Below are positions 776 to 46,581 of a DNA stretch of 46,581 nt, one piece after another. Position 1 is the stretch's first letter. Each line of letters starts with the position of its first letter. The stretch is from an uncultured Alphaproteobacteria bacterium (lineage in GTDB: Bacteria; Pseudomonadota; Alphaproteobacteria; Rs-D84), in NCBI GenBank assembly GCA_947305255.1, contig CAMZDE010000003.1, positions 1 to 46,581 of the forward strand. Direction: 5' to 3'. The translations under genes were made by a program, and so were the position numbers. Under the pieces are notes generated by a model. That model did not search any database, had not been told where the DNA came from, and saw only the letters and a list, made by a program, of their open reading frames with translations.

Positions 776-1297
776 TCATTGTGCGGTCGCAGTAATCAAT
801 GGAACCTCCGCCGTCGCACTGCTACTGTCATCGTCCCATGTTGTGTATATTTTGACACGTTGACTTAATATTCCTTTCGCCACCGCTGCTGCCGTAATCA
901 AACTTTCATCCCATGCCCACGAATCAACTCCAGCCTCATAGTCATCTATAAAAAGTTCTTGTCCAATAACATGATTTAATTGCAATAGTTCGTAACCTTC
1001 TCCCGATAGTTTTAATAACTGTTCTTGTTTTCGGTCAGCTAGATCAAAAGAGGTTTTATTTAGTGCCGCAATCACATCGTTATATGCACCCTTAACATAG
1101 GCAGTGGTGGCAATATGTTCTGCATCAGCGTTCGATATATCCGCTTTTTCATAAAAGGGATTATCTGTTGCCAACTCAACTTTCTCGTAATCATCATCAA
1201 ACTCACCGTTTGGACCTACATGATTTTCGGTTGCATTTACCGCAAACGATAGTATCGATATTATCGCAATCACTGACAATATTCGTTTCGCTTTCAT
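776..1297 (-). CDS. small secreted protein, 'IATTAYVKGAYN' family (copy A)
   Basis: Signal peptide MKAKRILSVIAIISILSFAVNA; motifs HIATTAYVKGAYND and SQRVKIYTTWD shared with ORFs at 7665, 27412, 31834. Confidence 0.8.
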   Translation of the reverse strand: MKAKRILSVIAIISILSFAVNATENHVGPNGEFDDDYEKVELATDNPFYEKADISNADAEHIATTAYVKGAYNDVIAALNKTSFDLADRKQEQLLKLSGEGYELLQLNHVIGQELFIDDYEAGVDSWAWDESLITAAAVAKGILSQRVKIYTTWDDDSSSATAEVPLITATAQ

Positions 1298-1371
1298 TTT
1301 TTCTCCTTTCGTATTATTTGGTTTACCCGTATCCGCTTAGGCGGGCCGCGGTTGTTGTGTCCGTTGGACAC

Positions 1372-1566
1372 AACAAAAGACCACCAAAAATTGGTGGTCG
1401 GGGAGTTGGTGTCAACAAGTGAATGTTTCCGCGCCTTGCGGCTAACGGCTCCCCGACCATTAGTCAGGGACGATAACGGTGCAAAAACACCGATACATCT
1501 TTTTAACGATGCTTTCGCACCGCACTTGTAGGCCACCACAGCCCCGAACCCAATTATTCAGGTTCG
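1372..1566 (-). ncRNA. structured leader RNA with terminator (copy A)
   Basis: TATAAT (rc of 1572-1577), GAACC..GGTTC 5' hairpin, GTCCCTGACTAATGGTCGGGG hairpin, then CCCCGACCACCAATTTTTGGTGGTC terminator; same architecture at four other loci. Confidence 0.8.
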
Positions 1567-7415: not shown

Positions 7416-7645
7416 CGAACCTAAGGGATTGGGTTCGGGGTCTTAGAAAAACCTTACAACTTCGGTGTAAAGGCATCGTAATCTAAAAAGTTTCCGATGT
7501 TTTTATGTCGTTAATATCCTTGACCTAGCGGTCGAGGATTCCGTAATGTATGTCCAAGGGGCCAACCCCGAAAGATTACGGAGAGCACTAAGTTGTTGCT
7601 TTTTCTAGTCCTCGACCACCTATTTTTGGGTGGTCTTTATTTTTA
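7416..7645 (+). ncRNA. structured leader RNA with terminator (copy B)
   Basis: TATAAT at 7404-7409; GAACCTAAGGGATTGGGTTCGGGG; CCTTGACCTAGCGGTCGAGG hairpin; CCTCGACCACCTATTTTTGGGTGGTCTTT terminator; helices covary with copies A, C, D, E. Confidence 0.8.
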
Positions 7646-7664: not shown

Positions 7665-8267
7665 ATGAAAGCAAAACGAATTTTATCAATCGCAATTATC
7701 GCCGCATTACCGTTCGGGGCACATGCAACCGATCCGGTTGTTGCCGTCGGGCCGGCACATGCGTCATCAAATCCGGTTGTCGCAACCGCCAACGCACCAT
7801 ACGTGACCGTAACCCCGACTCAGGCGGACGAATCACATATCGCCACCACCGCGTATGTTAAGGGGGCCTATAACGATGCCATCGCCGCAGTGAATAAAGT
7901 GGATGAAACTGTTGGTGAACAAATAGATAATGTTGTTGAACAGTTTCAGCGTGAAGATGCTGATTTGTATGAAGCTTTACATGCTGAAATTGAAAATACA
8001 AACAGTTCGTTTGACGACAAACAAAATAAATTTATTTTGGTTAGTAATCAAAGTAGCGGTGTGTCCGAATATGTGTTAGATAAGTCAGCGTTTTCTAATG
8101 AAATTCGAAACGGGTATGTTGCAAGTGTGGTTTCAGAAGATTCTAGTTTGGTTACTGCGGGGGCCGTGGCGGATGTATTTGCGTCGCAACGTGCCACGAT
8201 ATATACAACATGGGATACCAACGCCACGACTCAGGTTCCATTATCTTTTGTCCCTGTGCAGCCGTAA
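7665..8267 (+). CDS. small secreted protein, 'IATTAYVKGAYN' family (copy B)
   Basis: MKAKRILSIAIIAALPFGAHA signal peptide; HIATTAYVKGAYNDAIAAVNK; ATIYTTWDTNATTQVPL. Confidence 0.82.
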   Translation: MKAKRILSIAIIAALPFGAHATDPVVAVGPAHASSNPVVATANAPYVTVTPTQADESHIATTAYVKGAYNDAIAAVNKVDETVGEQIDNVVEQFQREDADLYEALHAEIENTNSSFDDKQNKFILVSNQSSGVSEYVLDKSAFSNEIRNGYVASVVSEDSSLVTAGAVADVFASQRATIYTTWDTNATTQVPLSFVPVQP

Positions 8268-8447: not shown

Positions 8448-8476
8448 GGCGGGGTTTGTTTTTCGGCGGCGGGGAA

Positions 8477-9523
8477 TTACTTTGTCACGACGTCGGCGAT
8501 TTTTTGAACCGCCAGATTTTCTACATACGATTTTTTCGCCATTTTATCAAGGCGTGACGGATTATCAAATAATTCGTCTAATGTTGCGGTCAACCATTTC
8601 GCCGAAAATTTATCCTGGGCCACATCAAAACCACCACCCAATTTTGCAAATGATGCCGCGTTTGCCGCCTGATCGGGGTTGATATTCAACGGAACCAAAA
8701 TCGCAGGCCGCCCGATTGTTTCCAATTCTATGACCGTGCTGGCACCGCTGCGTCCGATTACCAAATCAGAATCGACTATCGCGCCGGCCATATCGTGAAT
8801 AAACGACAACACATTTGCGCGAATTTTGTGTTCCGCATAAAAACGTTGTAATTTTTCGACGTTTTCAGGACGCGTTTGATGCGTTATAAATATTTTTTTG
8901 TTTTTCATTTTTGCAACTGCAACTGGGACTATTTCGTCCAAAATCTGGGCCCCCAATGAACCGCCGGTCACCAATATTTTATTTTCGTGTTTCAACGGCG
9001 CGTTTGACGATTTCAAGAAATCAGAACGCACCGGCAAACCGGTATAAATGATTTCTGCGGTTGATTTGTTCGGCATACCGGAAACGTTTTGAAAACTAAG
9101 CATCAAAGTTTTAACCCAGCGCAACGAAAATTTATTCGCGCGACCGATTGCCGCGTTCTGTTCGTGCAAATATGTTGGTATTTTCCACAAATGCGCTGCG
9201 AATACCGCCGGCACAGATGCATATCCGCCAAACGCAACCAATCGTTGTGGTCGAAAAATCATAAACCGCAACGATAACGCGATTGCAGATAAACCAATCT
9301 TTGACAACGCGATAATTTGTTTGATTTTTGATTTTGCACCGACGCCAGACGCCCAAACAAACGCCATTTTTGCAGACTTTGGTTTTCCGTCACGAACCAT
9401 TTTCACAACGCGGCTATCGCATGATATAGTTATTTTATGTCCGCGATTTGCTAATTCATTTGCGACACTAAGCGCGGGAAAAACATGTCCGCCGGTGCCA
9501 CCTGTTGCAATCCATATTTTCAT
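8477..9523 (-). CDS. murG: UDP-N-acetylglucosamine--N-acetylmuramyl-(pentapeptide) pyrophosphoryl-undecaprenol GlcNAc transferase
   Basis: MKIWIATGGTGGHVFPALSVANEL; HEQNAAIGRANK; GGSLGA; IGRSGASTVIELETIGRPAILVP. Confidence 0.95.
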   Translation of the reverse strand: MKIWIATGGTGGHVFPALSVANELANRGHKITISCDSRVVKMVRDGKPKSAKMAFVWASGVGAKSKIKQIIALSKIGLSAIALSLRFMIFRPQRLVAFGGYASVPAVFAAHLWKIPTYLHEQNAAIGRANKFSLRWVKTLMLSFQNVSGMPNKSTAEIIYTGLPVRSDFLKSSNAPLKHENKILVTGGSLGAQILDEIVPVAVAKMKNKKIFITHQTRPENVEKLQRFYAEHKIRANVLSFIHDMAGAIVDSDLVIGRSGASTVIELETIGRPAILVPLNINPDQAANAASFAKLGGGFDVAQDKFSAKWLTATLDELFDNPSRLDKMAKKSYVENLAVQKIADVVTK

Positions 9524-15663: not shown

Positions 15664-16956
15664 TTATTTTTTTATGGCGTCCGCCCATTTTTTAAGGTTT
15701 TTCCACATTAAATCTAAATCTTTTTTTGCAGTTTGATAGTATTTATCTGAGATTTTTATGTTAAACAGCATTTCTGTCAATTGCGGTATCATCGTCATAA
15801 ACATAGCAATAAATATACCCATCAGAATCGCTGTGATAATGCTGTCATTCTGTAAAACCAAGCCGTCCATCAAAATTTTCGAATCGTTTTGTGCAATTGC
15901 ATTGGCCAAAACATCTGCCCCAGACCAACTACCAAAAGATGCGTTCAAAAACATAATTGAAAACGCCAAAAACACCACTGTCAGTGCGATTCCGACAACC
16001 GCTTTGATTACATCATCTATCATTTGGCGAATCGTCTGGCCACCTTTTGGAAATACAGCAAACGCGTCTTCGTCAAACATCCATGCCATTAACATCAAAG
16101 GCAACATTACTAAATCCAGAGATAATTTTATAAAAATCTCTAAGAAATATAACGGTATTGGCAAAAGCGCGTAAAAATACAACGCCAATATCAAAAACCC
16201 AGCCAATATTAATGGAACATTTGGAAATATAGGAACATTCGATAAAATCTTATGCTGGTATTCTTCATTGAATGCCATATTCATAATTGTCCAACCAACG
16301 GTCATTCCTAGACCTGTTATTTGGTGAACATTTGCAACCTGACATGCCAATTGGTGCCGCAATTTCGGCGAAAAAGCACCGTATTCGGACGCCGCACTTG
16401 ATACAGATACAGGATCTGCAATTGCAGACGCAATCATACATTCAGAAAAAGTATCATTATCCGAAACTATGTAATCAAACGACGTACCAATGGTTAATGC
16501 AGGTTCAATAAAAACATTCGTTATCAAACGCGGCAACGGCATCACCAGTAAACCAATCAATACAGTCATTTTTACGACATACGTGCTGAAATTCCCGATA
16601 ATTTTGGAACTATCTTCCATTTTTCTGTTTATCATATTAGAAGACAAACGCCATGCGATTAAAATCGCCAACAATGTTGCAGACATTGGAATAACAACCA
16701 ATCCCAACGCGTGATATACCCCCGGCAATAAATTAGACATTGAAATCATAACATCTGAGAATATTTGGCACGTCCAACACGATGAAAAGAAATCCAATGC
16801 GTCCTGCATATTAACGGGGGAAACGCTGCGCCATATAGAAACACCAACAATCCCGACGCCGGCCGCAATTGCGCCAATGGCCAATGGTGCCAACGCCCAT
16901 GCGCCACATGGAAACAGTGCAATCAAAAACGCCCAAAACTTTTTTAACGATTTCAT
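15664..16956 (-). CDS. multi-TM VirB6/TrbL-like protein
   Basis: MKSLKKFWAFLIALFPCGAWA signal plus several TM segments; gene context of four further similar membrane proteins. Confidence 0.6.
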   Translation of the reverse strand: MKSLKKFWAFLIALFPCGAWALAPLAIGAIAAGVGIVGVSIWRSVSPVNMQDALDFFSSCWTCQIFSDVMISMSNLLPGVYHALGLVVIPMSATLLAILIAWRLSSNMINRKMEDSSKIIGNFSTYVVKMTVLIGLLVMPLPRLITNVFIEPALTIGTSFDYIVSDNDTFSECMIASAIADPVSVSSAASEYGAFSPKLRHQLACQVANVHQITGLGMTVGWTIMNMAFNEEYQHKILSNVPIFPNVPLILAGFLILALYFYALLPIPLYFLEIFIKLSLDLVMLPLMLMAWMFDEDAFAVFPKGGQTIRQMIDDVIKAVVGIALTVVFLAFSIMFLNASFGSWSGADVLANAIAQNDSKILMDGLVLQNDSIITAILMGIFIAMFMTMIPQLTEMLFNIKISDKYYQTAKKDLDLMWKNLKKWADAIKK

Positions 16957-17025
16957 GATTTTAATTATACCATAAATTATTATAAATGTGATATAATTCA
17001 ATAAACAAAATATATAAAAGAGAGA

Positions 17026-18336
17026 ATGTTTAATTCAAAACCGCACATATCGCGATTTTTTCGGCGTATCCCAATAATTATTGGGGCGGTATTTTTTGCG
17101 TGCGGTTTATTCATGGAACCGGCACATGCAAATATACTGGACGCATATAATCTGGCACCGTTTGTTCCTTTGGTCCTTGAATCAATGATGAACATCGCAA
17201 CATCGCTATATAAATATTTCGTTGGCAACGGAACAGGATTAATCTATATCTTGATTTATGCGTTTTTGGGTTTTTATATCGGATTGTATCTTGTAAAATT
17301 ATATTTACCAAAAGATTGGCTTTCTTTTCTAGGTTTTTCAGATGGCGGTGAAATGTGGGGCGGAAAACTGACCGGATGGTCTGTGGCTGAAAATGTGACG
17401 AAACCGTGCATTCGTGCCATTGTTGCGATTGTTGTGTTGTTACAAATCAAACCTATATACGTGACCAATTGGTTGGTTAATCCTTTTCTGGAATTTGGTT
17501 CCATATACACAGAGAGCATTTTAAAAACAATAAACCATTCAACTTTTGATGCCGCAGATGCACCGGCATGTCCTGCATCTATCGAAGAACAGGGTTGGAT
17601 TTCCAAACGCAGTTGTGATTTTTTGGTTCAACCTGTGTATATCATTTCAAAAGAAAACAATCGCATCATAAAATATGGCTTAGATTTTTTAAGAAGCGGT
17701 CTGGCCGGTTTGATGACTCTGATTCCGCACGGCGGCGAAAGCATATTAAATATTATCACGGGTATAATGCTGCTTAGTGCGTTTATATCTGCGAATTTAT
17801 TTATGGCGCTGCTTATCATTCAGGCGATATTTGATTTTTGTTTATCACTGATTATGTATCCGTTCAATGTGTTGGTATGGGTGGCAAAAAAATCAGACAA
17901 ATGGATTGATGTATTGCCAGCGTTCAGTCAAATCATAGACGCACTGAAAAAATTGGTTATTACCATGATTGCATGTGCATTTATATTGTGCATAAACATC
18001 GCATTGGTACGTGCATTGTTTAATTGGTCATCATCTGTATTTGTTGTTGCCGCCGGTGGCGTTGCGTCTTCTAATGTTCCTGCGATTACAAATACGGCTA
18101 TGAATTTTGGGCAACATTCTATTTTGTGGATATCGTCATTATTAACGTTCTTTTTGATGCAAAACATTTTCAAAAAGACACGCGAAAGATTAGATTTATA
18201 CACCAAAGGAACATCGCGTAATCTTTACAACAATGTGACAGGGGACGCGAAAGTAATATGGGGCAAAGCAAAATCGGCCCCAAGCACAATAAAAAACATT
18301 TGGCAGGCAGGCAAAAAGATAGCAGGAAAGAAATAA
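17026..18336 (+). CDS. multi-TM VirB6/TrbL-like protein
   Basis: TM-rich 436-aa protein; FCLSLIMYPFNVLVWVAKKSDKW resembles VirB6/TrbL cores. Confidence 0.6.
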   Translation: MFNSKPHISRFFRRIPIIIGAVFFACGLFMEPAHANILDAYNLAPFVPLVLESMMNIATSLYKYFVGNGTGLIYILIYAFLGFYIGLYLVKLYLPKDWLSFLGFSDGGEMWGGKLTGWSVAENVTKPCIRAIVAIVVLLQIKPIYVTNWLVNPFLEFGSIYTESILKTINHSTFDAADAPACPASIEEQGWISKRSCDFLVQPVYIISKENNRIIKYGLDFLRSGLAGLMTLIPHGGESILNIITGIMLLSAFISANLFMALLIIQAIFDFCLSLIMYPFNVLVWVAKKSDKWIDVLPAFSQIIDALKKLVITMIACAFILCINIALVRALFNWSSSVFVVAAGGVASSNVPAITNTAMNFGQHSILWISSLLTFFLMQNIFKKTRERLDLYTKGTSRNLYNNVTGDAKVIWGKAKSAPSTIKNIWQAGKKIAGKK

Positions 18337-18342
18337 AACATT

Positions 18343-19530
18343 ATGCAAGATATAGGCAATTTATTTGTTGGAAATGTTGTTCAATGCTGGGCATGTGGCG
18401 TGTTCGACAATCTGTTTTCTATTGTGTCGAACGCCGGCGCAGCAATGTATCAAAAATTGACTGTTTTTGGCATTCTTATCTTTTGCGTGTTATTTACATT
18501 CTATGTTATCAATGTCGTATGGCAAAATTTAAAAGCCCCGAAAACAGATGCGTTGTTCACAAAATCTATTAAACCTGTTTTAATAAAATCTTTGGTTGCA
18601 TTATCATTATTGGGGTTGGGGTTAACGGTTCCAAAACTTATTTCAAAGATAACATTCGAACCTGTTGCGTTAGTGACATTGGGTTTTTCACAAAGCATGT
18701 TGCCACCTGATTATGTTGTTGCCACAGATTACACACCAATTCAATTAGACAATAATGGATTTTTTACCCCGCAATTGCGTGACACTGTTTTACAACTGAT
18801 TCAAACCAGTATTACTAATTTCCAAGTTTATATAAAAATGGGAATCGGGATTATTGATGCTTCGTTTTCTATATCAGATTTATTATGGATTGGGTCACTT
18901 ATAAAACATATAATTGTATGTTTTATCGGATTGTTGTTGACGTATAATTTTGTCCGATTATTTATTAAATATTCTTTCTGTTTTATGGATATAATTTTAG
19001 CAATGGCATTGTTCGCATTCTTTTTCCCATTGTCATTGGTTTTCTTTATATTCAAAGGCGCATCTAATTTACCGGGCTGGATGAAAAGTTTAGGCGGGGA
19101 TTTAGGTTCTGGCCAAATAAAAAATCTGATAAATGCAATTGTGTCTGTGGCATCAACTATTTTAACATATACTATCATAATGATGATTATCAGCGGATTT
19201 TTGAAATCAAATGGAATGGACCTAAATTCAATGAACGCATCATACGAATCACTGTTCGATTTTGATTTAGAAAATTCAAATGCAATGCAAATTACTTTTG
19301 CGGGTGCTATTGTTTTGGTTTATGTGATACGATATATTGCAGATCAAATTCCCGAAATTACAAAAAAGATTTTGTCTGTATTTAATCTGTCACAAAACGA
19401 TTCGTTATCCAAAGAAGCAGGCGAAAACATGTTAAAATTGACATCGTTGATTGCAGATAATGCGAAAAAATTGGCAACAGCCGTGATAAATCCTGATTCT
19501 GTTAAAACATCGGAAGAAAAGAAAAAATGA
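18343..19530 (+). CDS. multi-TM VirB6/TrbL-like protein
   Basis: TM-rich; FCFMDIILAMALFAFFFPLSLVFFIFKG core, 7 nt after previous ORF. Confidence 0.6.
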   Translation: MQDIGNLFVGNVVQCWACGVFDNLFSIVSNAGAAMYQKLTVFGILIFCVLFTFYVINVVWQNLKAPKTDALFTKSIKPVLIKSLVALSLLGLGLTVPKLISKITFEPVALVTLGFSQSMLPPDYVVATDYTPIQLDNNGFFTPQLRDTVLQLIQTSITNFQVYIKMGIGIIDASFSISDLLWIGSLIKHIIVCFIGLLLTYNFVRLFIKYSFCFMDIILAMALFAFFFPLSLVFFIFKGASNLPGWMKSLGGDLGSGQIKNLINAIVSVASTILTYTIIMMIISGFLKSNGMDLNSMNASYESLFDFDLENSNAMQITFAGAIVLVYVIRYIADQIPEITKKILSVFNLSQNDSLSKEAGENMLKLTSLIADNAKKLATAVINPDSVKTSEEKKK

Positions 19531-20963
19531 TAAAAAAATGGTTGATTGAAAAAGGTTTCAAAATCGTTATAGGCGCAATTATATTGGGCGTCGGGATTTG
19601 GTATTTGTCGTCGTCAATTGGTGGCGCGTCGTTATCGTACACCAGCGTTGATAATTTTATGCATCAAATAGAATCTACACGTCCGATTGAAACAGGTGTC
19701 CCAGGGTGTTTCTTATGTGGATATATCGCCGATTTGTTTGCAGTTTTAGGGCGCACCACAGAAATGTTTTGGCAAGGAATTGTTCATACGTTATGGATAT
19801 TGATGGCGGTTGGGTTTGGAATTTTCATAATATTTCATACTGTGCAATTCTTTCGCGAAAACGCGACCAGCAAAGATATCACTGATTTAACAAAAAACAC
19901 ACCTAAATTAAATTTCAAAAAATGGTTCGACAAGATATGGAAAAATGGCGTCCGTATTTTAATTGCAGGTGCATTGATTGGCGCATTAAACTGGTCGGGG
20001 ACTGGGGCGTTACGAACAACAACTAATTTAACAGTGACACCGGTTATGTATATCGGTTCTATGTTATCAATGGCGGCAACTGGCGTTGTCAGCGGCGGTA
20101 AATGTGATATGGCGACAACTGCGCAATCAGACGAAGATATTTTGAATCCTGTATTAAAACCATTTATGTGTGTGATTGGGAATTTGAATACTGTGATGTT
20201 GGCGGGCGCTGGCGGCGGGTTTGCTTTAATGAATTATGCATGGATGGACATGGGCGGTGGTGTTTTCACGTGGATTGCCGGTTTATCATTGGTAATAATG
20301 TTTTTAATCATCGGATTTAATTTGTTATTCGAAGTTTTAAGCGTGATTTTCAAATTAATATTCATAATTATATTTATGCCGCTTTTGTTGGCCGCGGCCG
20401 CATTTGAACAAATCTGGAAACTGGCCAAAGGATTATTAAATTCTGCGATATCTATGTTGATAAATTCCGCGGTCAGCATAATTAAAATCAGTCTGAAAAT
20501 TTGTATTATATATGCGATTGTATATTTTTCAGCAACCGAATATGGATTCACAACTATTTTACCACCACTGTTGAATAATGCCCAAAACGAAACATTATCA
20601 GGACAATCTGCGGCCGTGTATGATGTATTTTCTTATTGCGAACACGCGTCCATTATCGACGGTAACATAGATAAAGCGACATTCAAAAACTGTTTCGATA
20701 ATAAACGCGCAGTGGTTGAAGCAAAATATCCACACGCATTTGATTTTATGGACGACGGATTTAATTTCTTGCTGTTTATGATTGGTGTTGCGCTGTTGTA
20801 TTTTTGGATTATATCACCACAAATTGATAAACTATTGACGCCGGTTGGCAAAGAAAAATTCGATTATGGTCAATGGCTGAAAGATTTTGGTAAAACAACC
20901 GTGAATGCGCCGTATAATATATATGCCAAGGTCAAAGAGACAATCGACAAAGGGAAAAAATAA
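19527..20963 (+). CDS. multi-TM VirB6/TrbL-like protein
   Basis: TM-rich; overlaps previous ORF stop by 4 nt; VIFKLIFIIIFMPLLLAAAAFEQIWKLAKG. Confidence 0.6.
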   Translation: MIKKWLIEKGFKIVIGAIILGVGIWYLSSSIGGASLSYTSVDNFMHQIESTRPIETGVPGCFLCGYIADLFAVLGRTTEMFWQGIVHTLWILMAVGFGIFIIFHTVQFFRENATSKDITDLTKNTPKLNFKKWFDKIWKNGVRILIAGALIGALNWSGTGALRTTTNLTVTPVMYIGSMLSMAATGVVSGGKCDMATTAQSDEDILNPVLKPFMCVIGNLNTVMLAGAGGGFALMNYAWMDMGGGVFTWIAGLSLVIMFLIIGFNLLFEVLSVIFKLIFIIIFMPLLLAAAAFEQIWKLAKGLLNSAISMLINSAVSIIKISLKICIIYAIVYFSATEYGFTTILPPLLNNAQNETLSGQSAAVYDVFSYCEHASIIDGNIDKATFKNCFDNKRAVVEAKYPHAFDFMDDGFNFLLFMIGVALLYFWIISPQIDKLLTPVGKEKFDYGQWLKDFGKTTVNAPYNIYAKVKETIDKGKK

Positions 20964-20964
20964 A

Positions 20965-22254
20965 ATGCAAATAATAAAAAAACTTAAATCTTTATTGATT
21001 AGCGTTTTATGCGTCGTTTGCATTTGCGGTGCAACCTATGCCGCAGGTAACGAACCGTTGGGCGATGTCGGCGAATATGGTGCATGGATTAACCAAGATA
21101 ATATGGAAAAATTTTCAGAATCTCTGTCTTCTGATGTCACGCAATTTCAAAACAAGTTTGAAACAGATATCAAATCACCAACCTTTGTCCCAATCGAAGT
21201 TAAAATCGGTCTGGCGTTGATGAAGGCACTTTATGATATAAACGGCATATTACAGATTTCACTTGTTCCTTTTGCAATAATATTTTTATTTGTTATGTAT
21301 GCGCTTTGGATTGGATTAGAGGCATACAAATTAATTCGTGATTCAGGTAATTATAAAAAAACATTATACGATATATTCAAAACAGGCATCATTATCGCCG
21401 TATGGATGATGATTTTGGATTATGGGCCGGCAAAGATATTCGCTATGATAATCGGGCCAATTATGTCAATCGGAACATATCTGTCTGATTTTATTTTGAA
21501 CACTACGGGCCAGATGTATAATGTCGATATTCCTGATACGTGTGCGGTTATACATCAATATGTTGACGCACACAATACTGGCAAATTATTAATAGATGCA
21601 AATGCGGCTGCAAACATTATGTGTCTGCCGGGGCGCATATCGACATATTTTTATCATGCCACCGCCACAGGCTTTCAATGGATGCTGTACGGATTCACAC
21701 ATAGCATTACTGCGATATTTATTGGCGCAGTATCAATATTCGTATTTATAAAATGTATTTTCAAATATGCGTTTATGACATTGGGTGTTGTGACAGATTT
21801 ATTTTTGAAACTTTTGATGTTACCGTTCACTGCCATTTCAGAATCGTTGCCAAAAACATCTGAAAGCAATTATGCAGGCCAACTGTTCACTGGTTTATCA
21901 AAAATATTTAATAGTGCGAATTTCAAATTGTCTGATGTGATTGCTGCGTTTATAAATGCGACAATATATTTTGTCAGTTTATCAATTATTATTTCGATAT
22001 GCGCGGTATTATTGTCAAATATTATCGCATTAAACGGCGACCATACATATTCTGTGGCCGCATCTATGACCGCGTTATTAACAGGTTGTTTGGTGTTATA
22101 TTTGGCAAACAAAGCCGACGAATATTCAAAGAAAATTGGCGGCAAGATTGATAATTCTTTTGGAACCAAATTACAAAGCGATGCAAAAACATTATTGGGT
22201 GACGCTAAAAAAATTGGTGGAATGTTTTTCAAAGATTGGATTAAGAAAAAATAA
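20965..22254 (+). CDS. multi-TM VirB6/TrbL-like protein
   Basis: Signal peptide MQIIKKLKSLLISVLCVVCICGATYA; DLFLKLLMLPFTAISESLPK core; adjacent to previous ORF. Confidence 0.6.
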   Translation: MQIIKKLKSLLISVLCVVCICGATYAAGNEPLGDVGEYGAWINQDNMEKFSESLSSDVTQFQNKFETDIKSPTFVPIEVKIGLALMKALYDINGILQISLVPFAIIFLFVMYALWIGLEAYKLIRDSGNYKKTLYDIFKTGIIIAVWMMILDYGPAKIFAMIIGPIMSIGTYLSDFILNTTGQMYNVDIPDTCAVIHQYVDAHNTGKLLIDANAAANIMCLPGRISTYFYHATATGFQWMLYGFTHSITAIFIGAVSIFVFIKCIFKYAFMTLGVVTDLFLKLLMLPFTAISESLPKTSESNYAGQLFTGLSKIFNSANFKLSDVIAAFINATIYFVSLSIIISICAVLLSNIIALNGDHTYSVAASMTALLTGCLVLYLANKADEYSKKIGGKIDNSFGTKLQSDAKTLLGDAKKIGGMFFKDWIKKK

Positions 22255-27411: not shown

Positions 27412-28044
27412 TTATTGCGCGGTTGATAATTCAACCTGTGTCGTCGCATTTGAATCCCACGTAGTATAAATATCAACACGTTTTTCACCAATCATATCAC
27501 TGGCTACATCATAAGCGATATCTGAAGCAGCATCTTTAACAACTTTGCCCGCACCATGCACCAATTGCAAAACCGCACCCGATGTTATTAACATCTCATC
27601 TGGATTATTCCCAATTTCTTCTTGCAGCCAATTATACACACTTCTAAACTCTTCTTCGGACTGCGTAGTTATCACGCCACCTAGTTCTATAAAATCACCA
27701 TTACCTACATCTGTACTGGTTGACAATACATCCGCAACAATATTATCACCATCCGCATTAGTTAACTGTGCCTGTTTAGTGTTAGTGATATCGCCTACTT
27801 TGTTCACTGCGGCAATTGCGCTGTTATAGGCACCCTTTACATACGCGGTTGTTGCGATATGGTCTTGGTCGGCGGTGTCAATATTAACACGACCATATGG
27901 TGCGCCCGCGCCTGTTGTTGGCGCGGGGTGATTTGTATCTGCCACGCTTGGCGCGGTGTACATCGCCCCCGATATATTTTCAGCCATTGCACCGAATGGC
28001 AACGCAAGCATTATTGCGATTGTTAATAAGTTTCTTGTTGTCAT
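27412..28044 (-). CDS. small secreted protein, 'IATTAYVKGAYN' family (copy C)
   Basis: ATG at 28044 after AGGAGAG RBS; MTTRNLLTIAIMLALPFGAMAENISGAMYTAP...HIATTAYVKGAYNSAIAAVNK...RVDIYTTWDSNATTQVELSTAQ. Confidence 0.82.
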   Translation of the reverse strand: MTTRNLLTIAIMLALPFGAMAENISGAMYTAPSVADTNHPAPTTGAGAPYGRVNIDTADQDHIATTAYVKGAYNSAIAAVNKVGDITNTKQAQLTNADGDNIVADVLSTSTDVGNGDFIELGGVITTQSEEEFRSVYNWLQEEIGNNPDEMLITSGAVLQLVHGAGKVVKDAASDIAYDVASDMIGEKRVDIYTTWDSNATTQVELSTAQ

Positions 28045-28072
28045 AGTTTCTCTCCTTTTTTTGTTGCAACAA

Positions 28073-28248
28073 CAAAAAACCACCTGAAAATCAAAGGTGG
28101 TTGGAGGTTCGAAACAACTCAAACTGAAATTGTGCGCCTTATTCAATTTATTCGGCAGCCCTCCAACCATATAGTTGGAGATTTTAACGCTATCTCTAAC
28201 GCAGTTTGAAACGGGTTTCGACACCCCATCGGTGGAACCCCCACCGAC
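28073..28248 (-). ncRNA. structured leader RNA with terminator (copy C)
   Basis: CTCCAACTATATGGTTGGAGG hairpin; CCTCCAACCACCTTTGATTTTCAGGTGGTTTTTTG terminator; CAAACTG/CAGTTTG long-range helix. Confidence 0.8.
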
Positions 28249-31833: not shown

Positions 31834-32415
31834 TTATTGCGCCGTTGACAGAGCAACCTGAGTCGTGGCATTTGAATCCCACGTCGTATATATATCAACA
31901 CGTTGACTTAAAATCCCCTCTGCCACAGCTTTCGCACTTATTAAACTCGAATCATAAAAACCATCGTAATAATTATTTTCTATGTCATTATCCCTGAGCG
32001 CATCAAGAAAATTTCCAGAGCCAACAACATAGCCACCACCATTAGCACCCTCTTCATATTCCAGTCTGTCTTGTTTGTAGTCAAGATCCCTATAAGACGC
32101 ATATTGTTGTTGGTCAACAACTTTCATTGTTTCTTCTACTGCTGTTTCTATTGCAAACTCGGTCACTTTGTTCACTGCGGCGATGGCACTATTATATGCA
32201 CCCTTTACATATGCGGTTGTCGCGATATGTTCTTGGTCGGCGGTATCTATATTCACACGACCATATAGCGGGTCTGCACTGGTTGTTGGTGCAGGGTGAT
32301 TTGTGTCATAGTGTGCCGGCGCAGTGTACATCGCACCCGAGATATTTTCAGCGTGTGCAGCAAATGGCAATGCCACGATTACGGCGATTGATAATAAAGT
32401 TTTTGTTGCTTTCAT
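31834..32415 (-). CDS. small secreted protein, 'IATTAYVKGAYN' family (copy D)
   Basis: MKATKTLLSIAVIVALPFAAHAENISGAMYTAP...HIATTAYVKGAYNSAIAAVNK...SQRVDIYTTWDSNATTQVALSTAQ. Confidence 0.83.
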   Translation of the reverse strand: MKATKTLLSIAVIVALPFAAHAENISGAMYTAPAHYDTNHPAPTTSADPLYGRVNIDTADQEHIATTAYVKGAYNSAIAAVNKVTEFAIETAVEETMKVVDQQQYASYRDLDYKQDRLEYEEGANGGGYVVGSGNFLDALRDNDIENNYYDGFYDSSLISAKAVAEGILSQRVDIYTTWDSNATTQVALSTAQ

Positions 32416-32439: not shown

Positions 32440-32628
32440 ACAACAAAAACCACCCATAAAAAGGTGGTTGGAGGTTCAAGACAATTTGAGTGAAATTGTG
32501 TGCTTATTCTGTCGGAATCCGGCATTATTCGCAACCCTCCAACCATAAGTTGGAGATTTTTACGTCCGTATTAAACGAACAACACTCAATCGGGTCTTGA
32601 AACCCCATCAACAGAACACCTGTTGACG
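32440..32628 (-). ncRNA. structured leader RNA with terminator (copy D)
   Basis: TATAAT (rc of 32634-32639); GTCAACAG..CTGTTGAT; CTCCAACTTATGGTTGGAGG; CCTCCAACCACCTTTTTATGGGTGGTTTTTG; TTCAAGAC/GTCTTGAA and TTGAGTG/CACTCAA long-range helices. Confidence 0.82.
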
Positions 32629-36048: not shown

Positions 36049-36766
36049 AATCTGAATTGCCGTTGATAATATTGTTGCCAACAAATCCGCCAATGGGCCC
36101 TATACCCACCGCAGTCCCACCATAATTCACACGATTTGACGATGTATCCTGGGCGGTATTTATTTGTGCCTGGTCGTTTTCACTGTTCAAAGCAGTCGCA
36201 CGATAAAGAGAAGAATATACACCAGCGTTTATACCTGTGTTTTCTTGGTCATATAAACCTATTTGTGCCTTGTCCATAATAATTTCGCTTTCAATACCAG
36301 GTTTCATACCCAACGCTTCTTTGCGTTCTTTTAAACTGGCGGCCAGCGCAAAATATTCACTGCGTAACTGCATCAATTTTTCATCATTTCCGCCGGGCAA
36401 CTCAACAGGCACAGTCCCAAATTTAACAGATTTTCCATCGCCATAGGAACAACGCATAGTTTCAATATATGCCGTCATATCTGTCACCGCTTCGCGATCT
36501 GCGCGTTGTTCAGCCAAACCCTGTGCCAGTTGCATACCGCCAATCCCTGTCGCCGCCACTGTTGCCGCGGCCAGCGTCCGATTTGCCAAAGATTGTTCAC
36601 GTTTTTTTGCTTCCTCGTATGCTTTTTGCAATTCTTCATATTCATGATTTATGGTCTCGGCATATTGATACAGTTCTTTAACAGACATTTTTGTCAAATC
36701 GATTTCATCAGCATAAACGCTATTTATGAGAACAACACAACAAAATAGAATAGATTTTATTTTCAT
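36047..36766 (-). CDS. secreted hypothetical protein with coiled-coil region
   Basis: Signal peptide MKIKSILFCCVVLINSVYA; overlaps upstream ORF by 4 nt. Confidence 0.65.
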   Translation of the reverse strand: MKIKSILFCCVVLINSVYADEIDLTKMSVKELYQYAETINHEYEELQKAYEEAKKREQSLANRTLAAATVAATGIGGMQLAQGLAEQRADREAVTDMTAYIETMRCSYGDGKSVKFGTVPVELPGGNDEKLMQLRSEYFALAASLKERKEALGMKPGIESEIIMDKAQIGLYDQENTGINAGVYSSLYRATALNSENDQAQINTAQDTSSNRVNYGGTAVGIGPIGGFVGNNIINGNSD

Positions 36767-38001
36767 TCTGTCACTCTTTCATCATGTTCAATTGGCTCTC
36801 GTTTTGTTTCTGTTTTTTGATAATTTCCATAAAACGATAAAGTGTGTCCATAAATGCTCCCCATAGGGATATGGTTGCTTTCCCAATCATGATACCAACC
36901 ACCGTTTTCGTTATGGTCTTGAAACTTCCCGTTTTTCGTATCAATACGATCTTGATTTTCCCAATTTCTGACCGCAGTGAAATCCTGAATCATATCATAA
37001 AAACCAACATGACAATCACAATAAATCAGAGTATCCAATTGATTTAAGGGTCCAGAACAATTACAATCGCTATACGCATCTGCATTTATATGTGTATTGC
37101 TTAACACATCATCATAGTCATAGGAAATATCAATCAGATTATCACCTGGATATTCTGTTATATTTAATTCATATTTTTCGTATTTTTCTGGTCTTTGTTC
37201 AACGTTCCAGCACCCTATCGCCACCGTTTGACACTCTTTATTATAAGGATTTATAGACCACCTTCGATGGTTTGAATTTTCATTTACTTTTAGTAAATAA
37301 TTGTATTCTTTTTCTGCTTTACGAAGTTTTTTACGTTTTTCTCTAACTTTTTTTCTGGAATGTTCAGATTTTTGTGTTTCTAATATATATTCCCGGTTTG
37401 CTTTTTCGAATTCTTCCAGGGCATTTCTTAATTCATCTGCCAAGCTTTTTATTTCATTTGTTTCTTCCAGACAATATTTTTCACAATAGATATCAACAGG
37501 GGCTTTTGCTGTTTCCTGGGCAATCAAATCATCAAATAACTTAACATCCGTTTGTTTAAAATGTCCCATTTTATCACAGGTTTTACATTTTGAACCTGCC
37601 TTGGTTATTAAATCTTTTTCAGAAAGATAAAGAGTCCTATATTTAACATCCGATGTATTAAAATAATTTGTTTCATTACCTTCTTTTTCCACCGTTACCC
37701 CATCTTTAGCGCGCATATAAATATCATCGATAAAATTTTGTTTTACTTCTTCAAATGCTATACGTGCCAGATAATTTCTTATTACCATACGTTTGGCATC
37801 AATACTTAAATTATCAAAACCAACCCAATCAAAGTCGTTATATCTTTGCTTTACCTGTTCAACCAGTTTGTCAAATTCTTCTTGGTTAATTTTCATATTG
37901 TTTTCAATTATAGATATATTTGTTTCAACATCTATATTTTCAGCATCCGCATACGAAAACACCGACAGTGTCAGAAAAAACAACACAAAAATCTTTCTCA
38001 C
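36763..38001 (-). CDS. secreted Cys-containing hypothetical protein (GTG start)
   Basis: GTG at 38001 after GGGGG RBS-like sequence; signal peptide MRKIFVLFFLTLSVFSYADA. Confidence 0.65.
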   Translation of the reverse strand: MRKIFVLFFLTLSVFSYADAENIDVETNISIIENNMKINQEEFDKLVEQVKQRYNDFDWVGFDNLSIDAKRMVIRNYLARIAFEEVKQNFIDDIYMRAKDGVTVEKEGNETNYFNTSDVKYRTLYLSEKDLITKAGSKCKTCDKMGHFKQTDVKLFDDLIAQETAKAPVDIYCEKYCLEETNEIKSLADELRNALEEFEKANREYILETQKSEHSRKKVREKRKKLRKAEKEYNYLLKVNENSNHRRWSINPYNKECQTVAIGCWNVEQRPEKYEKYELNITEYPGDNLIDISYDYDDVLSNTHINADAYSDCNCSGPLNQLDTLIYCDCHVGFYDMIQDFTAVRNWENQDRIDTKNGKFQDHNENGGWYHDWESNHIPMGSIYGHTLSFYGNYQKTETKREPIEHDERVTE

Positions 38002-38016: not shown

Positions 38017-38235
38017 AAAAAATGACCACCAGAAAATTGGTGGTCGGGGAATTGCTAAATCATGTTGTTATTGACTCTGTCGCTTTCGGGTTGCCCCTAT
38101 TTTATAACGGACAGTCCCCCGACCATAAGTCAGGGATGATAACGGCGCAAAAGACACCGATAACATCATTATAACGATGCTTTCGCACCGAACAACATGG
38201 GCTTAGCATAGCCCCGAACCAATCTTTCAGGTTCA
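38017..38235 (-). ncRNA. structured leader RNA with terminator (copy E)
   Basis: GAACCTGAAAGATTGGTTCGGGG; CCCTGACTTATGGTCGGGG; CCCCGACCACCAATTTTCTGGTGGTCATTTTTT; CATGTTGTT/AACAACATG long-range helix. Confidence 0.8.
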
Positions 38236-38282
38236 ATTTGGATTCTATCATAAAAAAATAAAAATTAAAACCAAAAATTTGA

Positions 38283-41613: not shown

Positions 41614-41732
41614 ATTCTGGCGACGACCTACTCTTCCGTGGCTTAAGCCAAAGTACCATCGGCGATACGGCTTTTCCCTGTCTGGTTCGGAATGGAACAG
41701 AGGGTTACATCCGCTCTATAATCACCAGAATT
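41614..41732 (-). rRNA. rrf: 5S ribosomal RNA
   Basis: Recognisable 5S (CTGGCGACGACCTACTCTTCCGTGGCTTAAGCC... on + strand), downstream of 23S. Confidence 0.9.
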
Positions 41733-41814
41733 AAATCCAGCGAACTCATTATAATCTCACAAATTCTATTGTCAAGAATCTTTCAACGTTCTCTTCAAGC
41801 ATAATATATGATAA

Positions 41815-44560
<2,746 letters not shown>

Positions 44561-44873
44561 TCTTATGCTTGAAGAGAATGTCTTTTAAGCACAAAACCTA
44601 AAAATAACTTGAATGAGCAGACGTTTTCACGTCTTTTAAGCATTTAAGTTGATTCTTGCTCTCTTTAAATTGAATTATCACTTTCGTGATTACTCTCTTT
44701 AGAAAGAATATTTTGAGATTACGATGTTCAACAAATCAAACTTTCGTTTAATTTGCGACATAAAAACCGATTAACAATATATTGCTATGAAAGCAGATTC
44801 CATTGGATATTCATTTGGAATATTTGGAATCAAAAATGAAAAATCATTTTTGATTTCAACCTCATCTTAAAAC

Positions 44874-44950
44874 TGGTGGGTCAGGAAGAACTCGAATCTT
44901 CGACCTTCGCTGTATCAGAGCGACATTCTAACCAACTGAACTACTGACCC
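44874..44950 (-). tRNA. tRNA-Ile(GAT)
   Basis: GGGTCAG acceptor, GTTCAGTTGGTTAGAAT D-arm, TCGCT-CTGATAC-AGCGA anticodon arm (GAT), GAAGATTCGAGTTCTTC T-arm, encoded CCA. Confidence 0.95.
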
Positions 44951-45072
44951 ATAACTAATTGAAGTTTCTGATAGGCCGCAATTCCGCTGATACCAGAATC
45001 TTCGTCCAAAAAAGAGATATTCAGACAGTCGCACTTGGATTTGACCGTTTTCGTGAAAACGGTATTCTCTAT

Positions 45073-46571
<1,499 letters not shown>

Positions 46572-46581
46572 TTCTAAAAAA

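Follow-up and report, generated by a model that had tools for sequence, protein, structure and literature searches.

A widespread family of pseudoknotted leader RNAs with competing terminator and antiterminator helices: probable transcription attenuators of reduced-genome Alphaproteobacteria

T-box leaders exchange a terminator for an antiterminator, and within one genome this arrangement recurs in front of many genes. The RNAs of type III toxin-antitoxin systems (ToxI-like RNAs) are pseudoknotted and sometimes occur in tandem, with a terminator and a gene downstream. The expression platforms of riboswitches exhibit a large sequence diversity (PMC13273304). The main text of PMC8040213, in which ToxI/ToxN is mentioned, presents candidate leader RNAs that were derived from metagenomes of human microbiomes, some of them located before HTH_XRE genes.

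The leader RNAs described here resemble transcription-terminating riboswitches in that an intrinsic terminator, with an antiterminator competing against it, comes after a conserved folded domain of the 5′ leader. The exchange of these two helices before many genes of one genome is reminiscent of T-box leaders, while a pseudoknotted RNA, sometimes in tandem, with a terminator and then a gene behind it is reminiscent of ToxI-like RNAs. The candidates in the main text of PMC8040213 are similar insofar as they are metagenome-derived leader RNAs and some precede HTH genes.

The window, i.e., the whole stretch of 46,581 nucleotides that was analysed, is one contig of a draft genome of 44 contigs and 834,574 bases, which is estimated to be 74% complete. 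It carries five leaders, named A to E. A run of genes at 15664-22254 for large proteins with multiple membrane spans, which by eye resemble VirB6/TrbL components of type IV secretion, is also found in the window, and the minus strand carries a complete rRNA operon at 41615-46574 (16S, tRNA, 23S, 5S).

Architecture of the leaders and their pseudoknots

Two covariance models were used, one built on 27 leaders from the genome of the window (R1) and one built on 110 members from other genomes (R2). The order of the elements from 5′ to 3′ is a -10-like box, P1, P2, a joining strand, P4, the mid hairpin, P6, P7, the 3′ strand of a first pseudoknot (PK1), a flank, and the terminator. Leader E (type I) extends on the minus strand from its -10-like box to the U-tail of its terminator (38017-38251). 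It was matched by R2 at 38024-38214 with an E-value of 1.4e-7, which, like all E-values of the covariance models, rests on a shortened calibration. Its fold has a z-score of -7.65, i.e., it lies 7.65 standard deviations under the shuffled sequences. The gene behind it (36763-38001, minus strand) starts with GTG and encodes a secreted protein of 412 amino acids.

All elements of leader E are on the minus strand. A -10-like hexamer TAGAAT, recognized from the sequence, is located at 38242-38247 directly before P1, and the P2 hairpin (GGGC/GCCC) at 38199-38214. The mid hairpin (CCCTGAC/GTCGGGG) spans 38117-38135, and its 3′ strand GGTCGGGG (38117-38124) doubles as the 5′ strand of the antiterminator. 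The flank CCCCGACC (38042-38049) is common to the antiterminator and the terminator. The intrinsic terminator at 38017-38045 consists of the stem GACCACC-loop-GGTGGTC (38024-38045) and an ATTTTTT tail (38017-38023). The preliminary description had located the competing structures at 38017-38100, a span that holds the terminator, the flank and the 3′ strands of the pseudoknots, while the mid hairpin lies outside.

The strand pairs on which that description was built were found in all five leaders. Leader A (type I, 1371-1565, minus strand) precedes the gene at 776-1297 and forms P1 (1546-1565), P2 (1530-1545), the mid hairpin (1450-1470) and the terminator (1371-1399); its antiterminator strands are the mid 3′ strand GGTCGGGGAG (1449-1458) and the flank CTCCCCGACC (1396-1405). 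Leader B (type I, 7417-7644) is located on the plus strand before the gene at 7665-8267, with P1 at 7417-7436, the mid hairpin at 7517-7538, P6 at 7541-7581 and the terminator at 7614-7644, and here the two strands are GGTCGAGGAT (7530-7539) and GTCCTCGACC (7608-7617). The leaders of type II are both on the minus strand and share one strand pair, the mid 3′ strand GGTTGGAGG and the flank CCTCCAACC. Leader C (28073-28247, before the gene at 27412-28044) comprises P1 (28229-28247), P2 (28213-28227), the mid hairpin (28161-28180), P6 (28136-28156), P7 (28114-28133) and the terminator (28073-28102), with antiterminator strands at 28160-28168 and 28099-28107. Leader D (32444-32626, before the gene at 31834-32415) comprises P1 (32608-32626), P2 (32592-32606), the mid hairpin (32537-32555), P6 (32501-32533), P7 (32481-32499) and the terminator (32444-32469), with antiterminator strands at 32536-32544 and 32466-32474. 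A short palindromic stretch (GTTGTTGCAACAA) is often present between the terminator and the ribosome-binding site, in the window at about 28046-28075 and similarly elsewhere.

A strict scan for sigma-70 promoters around leader E did not yield a promoter. The putative -10 box is instead suggested by its constant position across the members; in relatives the best -10 position peaks 32-34 nt before P2.

The leaders contain two pseudoknots. PK1 is formed between the loop of P2 and the segment directly before the flank (in leader E 38203-38209 and TTAGCA at 38053-38058), and PK2 between the joining strand and the loop of P7 (in leader E CATGTTGTT at 38191-38199 and the 3′ strand AACAACATG at 38061-38069). 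In the alignment of the own-genome leaders PK1 was paired in 98.5% of cases, and all five pairs had changed on both sides. Across all members, PK1 scored 7.24 compared to 3.82 ± 0.11 with swapped partners, and PK2 scored 7.05 compared to 3.40 ± 0.08, with 121 distinct duplexes. It had been proposed earlier that the G-rich 5′ strand (TCGGGG or GGGG) also competes for the flank, resulting in a three-way competition. The exchange between terminator and antiterminator withstood the analysis described below, but the third partner was weakly supported, with a score of 5.97 compared to 5.63 ± 0.07 for swapped partners (a gain of 0.34). These Gs are better explained by the local hairpin P2 (consensus GRGG/CCYC), the loop of which makes the covarying PK1 instead.

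P6 has a conserved internal loop, which exists in two versions, approximately AAUA/GAAUAA in type II and approximately AUGUCCAG/UAAAG in type I. Both versions recur in distant genomes, and they look like interchangeable sensor modules. The internal loop is the best candidate for a sensor or a ligand site, and in both versions it may sense one common ligand or protein.

Covariation of the overlapping helices and a proposed switch

The mid hairpin, the antiterminator and the terminator were compared in an alignment of 60 sequences that had been produced with a covariance model and had not been fitted to the antiterminator helix. The mid hairpin was paired in 93.3% of cells and the terminator helix in 94.4%, and in each of them 7 of 7 pairs had changed on both sides. 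The antiterminator was paired in 92.5% of cells, compared to 77% after shuffling, and 8 of its 9 pairs had changed on both sides. Its covariation score was 0.508 compared to 0.201 for the shuffled alignments. For none of the three helices was the observed score reached in 500 shuffles, which control the relatedness of the sequences only in part, and slid versions of the helices dropped to 0.01-0.21. The earlier observation that the mid 3′ strand and the segment entering the terminator change together was thus borne out well beyond the five leaders.

The simplest objection is that the flank just repeats the 5′ strand of the mid hairpin. Among 20 members whose flanks have diverged, the duplex of mid 3′ strand and flank scored 10.5, compared to 6.46 ± 0.39 for swapped partners (maximum 7.8, n = 500). 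The base after GGAG and the base before CTCC were paired in 94% of sequences, with a mutual information of 0.77, whereas the same base and the mid hairpin's own 5′ strand were paired in 55%, with a mutual information of 0.055. A base beyond the mid hairpin therefore covaries with the flank and not with its own 5′ strand, so that the complementarity does not simply follow from the hairpin, and this objection is removed. The mutually exclusive pairing of terminator and antiterminator, the central proposal of the preliminary description, has strong support from the covariation, which extends across many genera, and from the gene context, with start codons in relatives at a median distance of 27 nt behind the terminator. 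An intrinsic terminator lies between the putative promoter and the gene, and a conserved alternative helix makes use of terminator bases.

On this basis it is likely that the family is a cis-acting, riboswitch-like transcription attenuator that terminates by default. Transcription would start at P1. In the OFF fold P1, P2, P4, the mid hairpin, P6 and P7 would be tied together by PK1 and PK2; the mid hairpin would be closed and the flank free, the intrinsic terminator would form, and RNA polymerase would stop before the gene. In the ON fold the mid 3′ strand would leave its own 5′ partner and pair with the flank, and this antiterminator would occupy the bases with which the terminator stem begins, so that the gene would be read. 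Because the antiterminator crosses PK1 and PK2, the two states are expected to be incompatible, and the pseudoknots may act as a gate. The earlier label "attenuator or riboswitch" is thus the best reading of the covariation and the gene context, from which regulation in the cell, by termination and read-through, is inferred.

For the full leader the terminated state was calculated to be more stable by 11-13 kcal/mol, not counting the pseudoknots. Before the 3′ strand of the terminator exists the two states are close, with differences of +2.2 kcal/mol for type II and -0.25 kcal/mol for type I, again without pseudoknots. From these energies default termination is expected, and a signal would act during the brief interval before the terminator is completed; taken alone, the calculated energies do not favour read-through.

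A translating ribosome could also pick the fold, as in leader-peptide attenuators. Some frame with an AUG was present in 28 of 29 type II leaders of the own genome, mostly beginning at an AUG in the loop of the mid hairpin. However, an AUG was accompanied by a Shine-Dalgarno-like sequence in no more than 6 of the 29 leaders of type II and 1 of the 9 of type I. Of 110 relatives just 23 have the AUG, and neither length nor sequence of the frame was conserved. A conserved short frame with a ribosome-binding site is thus missing, and this mechanism is largely refuted and has next to no probability left.

Distribution, downstream genes and alternative functions

With R2, 52 copies were found in the draft genome of 0.83 Mb, including the five leaders of the window, which corresponds to about one copy per 16 kb. 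In the genome, 10 and 30 matches were obtained with patterns for the two types of terminators but none with reversed control patterns, and the matches are thus far beyond chance. R2 recovered all five leaders of the window, including the sequence-divergent leaders A, B and E, and types I and II are therefore most simply regarded as one family. Among draft genomes of relatives, R1 had hits in 141 of the 148 genomes from the family and in 133 of 148 from the order, and weaker ones in further families of the class. When 395 genomes from across the class were sampled, R2 matched in 38 of them; in a sample of 299 genomes of the phylum only the genus of the window and one borderline case were found, and this result is also a control for specificity. 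A pattern scan of named genomes found the family in Candidatus Enterousia and in many Alphaproteobacteria from gut, rumen and termites. Enterousia is a member of the reduced-genome order Rs-D84 (PMC12306168). The copy number, the wide distribution and the two pseudoknots had not been part of the preliminary description. One member was detected on a contig classified as viral (IMGVR_UViG_3300024303_004416, 8460-8612) before a gene resembling ABC transporters; this contig may be misclassified host DNA.

In the own genome 38 of 40 leaders are followed by a start codon at a distance of 23-96 nt, and at least 34 of the 40 examined leaders precede members of one family of secreted paralogs, which is characterized by the motifs HIA[ST]TAYVKGAYN and IYTTWDDD. 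At least 34 complete paralogs are a large expansion for a genome of 0.83 Mb; four of them are encoded in the window (776-1297, 7665-8267, 27412-28044 and 31834-32415). The family did not match any entry in Pfam, NCBIfam, PHROGs or PDB sequences, and an AlphaFold model had low confidence (mean pLDDT 65, pTM 0.35). In other genomes 60 of 95 downstream proteins looked exported in a crude test. The downstream genes there also encode an EcoRI-type methylase, GmrSD, an Mrr-like nuclease, a glycosyltransferase, a Stealth protein, an HTH protein, phage anti-repressors and a DNA methyltransferase. At three loci in distant genomes leaders stand before genes for phage anti-repressors (Ant) and another phage-type regulator, a hint that prophages may use the same switch.

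The dispersal of the 52 copies and their place, in most cases before members of a single paralog family, are reminiscent of antigenic-variation systems, and the element could be a DNA repeat or cassette for recombination between paralogous surface genes, with an incidental RNA fold. This is very improbable, because letters change while pairing stays, which indicates selection on the RNA and not on DNA identity, and because the genes behind the leaders in other genomes are unrelated.

In some relatives tandem arrays of 2-5 leaders with a spacing of about 240 nt were found at seven loci, in which every unit possesses a -10-like box and a terminator of its own. The last unit precedes a gene for an HTH-like protein of 62-68 amino acids. 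Its 63-aa version was considered as a universal trans factor and rejected, as it is absent from the own genome and present in 1 of 14 genera. No genes are located between the units of these arrays, and for 15 of 110 leaders in relatives no start was recognized within 200 nt. Both observations speak against an attenuator and would also fit free-standing, trans-acting small RNA genes with their own promoter and terminator, for which the place before genes would be incidental or would give some read-through. The -10-like box and terminator of each unit, the arrays and the units without a recognized gene behind them are in accordance with such genes, but nearly all units of the own genome have a start codon 23-96 nt downstream, a stable antiterminator that undoes the RNA's own terminator would be useless if the RNA simply ended there, and the pairing letters vary between copies, which argues against a common target. 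Small RNA genes are thus an unlikely explanation. In favour of a cis-acting attenuator, the median gap of 27 nt between leader and gene in relatives leaves little room for another promoter; against it, the downstream genes do not share a single pathway.

A more far-reaching interpretation is possible, but considerably more doubtful than attenuation as such. The RNAs could be a new riboswitch-like class with two interchangeable sensor loops. In reduced-genome Alphaproteobacteria such a class would switch surface proteins and genes related to defence or phages jointly throughout the genome, with one signal setting the read-through at dozens of leaders together, in some species via stacked tandem attenuators. 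A repeated cis-regulatory RNA before exported, defence and phage genes across many alphaproteobacterial genera would be an unnoticed regulatory layer in uncultured host-associated bacteria. The two covarying, mutually exclusive helices make the family unusually ready for experiments, as natural variants reveal the matching letters for each state. Identification of the signal would tell what metabolically reduced gut bacteria sense when they alter their surface.

Comparison with known regulatory RNAs

The window and eight leader loci were compared with all Rfam families. No match reached the gathering threshold, and matches on the leaders at relaxed thresholds scored far under the gathering scores. 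No description of the family was found in the texts of the papers that were searched. Known riboswitches differ from the leaders in that the latter have no Rfam match, precede genes without a shared pathway, and occur in 52 copies in one small genome. Also unlike riboswitch expression platforms, covariation spans the whole leader including the switching strands. Because the ligand is not known and the genes share no pathway, membership in a riboswitch class is not claimed.

The T-box covariance model did not match the window or the eight loci in the Rfam comparison, and, unlike with T-boxes, the genes behind the leaders are not amino-acid genes. In contrast to ToxI, the units have a length of about 200 nt, and the downstream proteins are mostly exported and mutually unrelated; no ToxN-like family was found among 20 downstream proteins that were scanned against Pfam. 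The main text of PMC8040213 does not name Alphaproteobacteria, and it is on this main text that the separation from its candidates is based. Taken together, the leader RNA is rated as a new RNA family whose mechanism is of a known kind. Its three-strand exchange, which is tied to pseudoknots, is unusual, and its copy number is exceptional.
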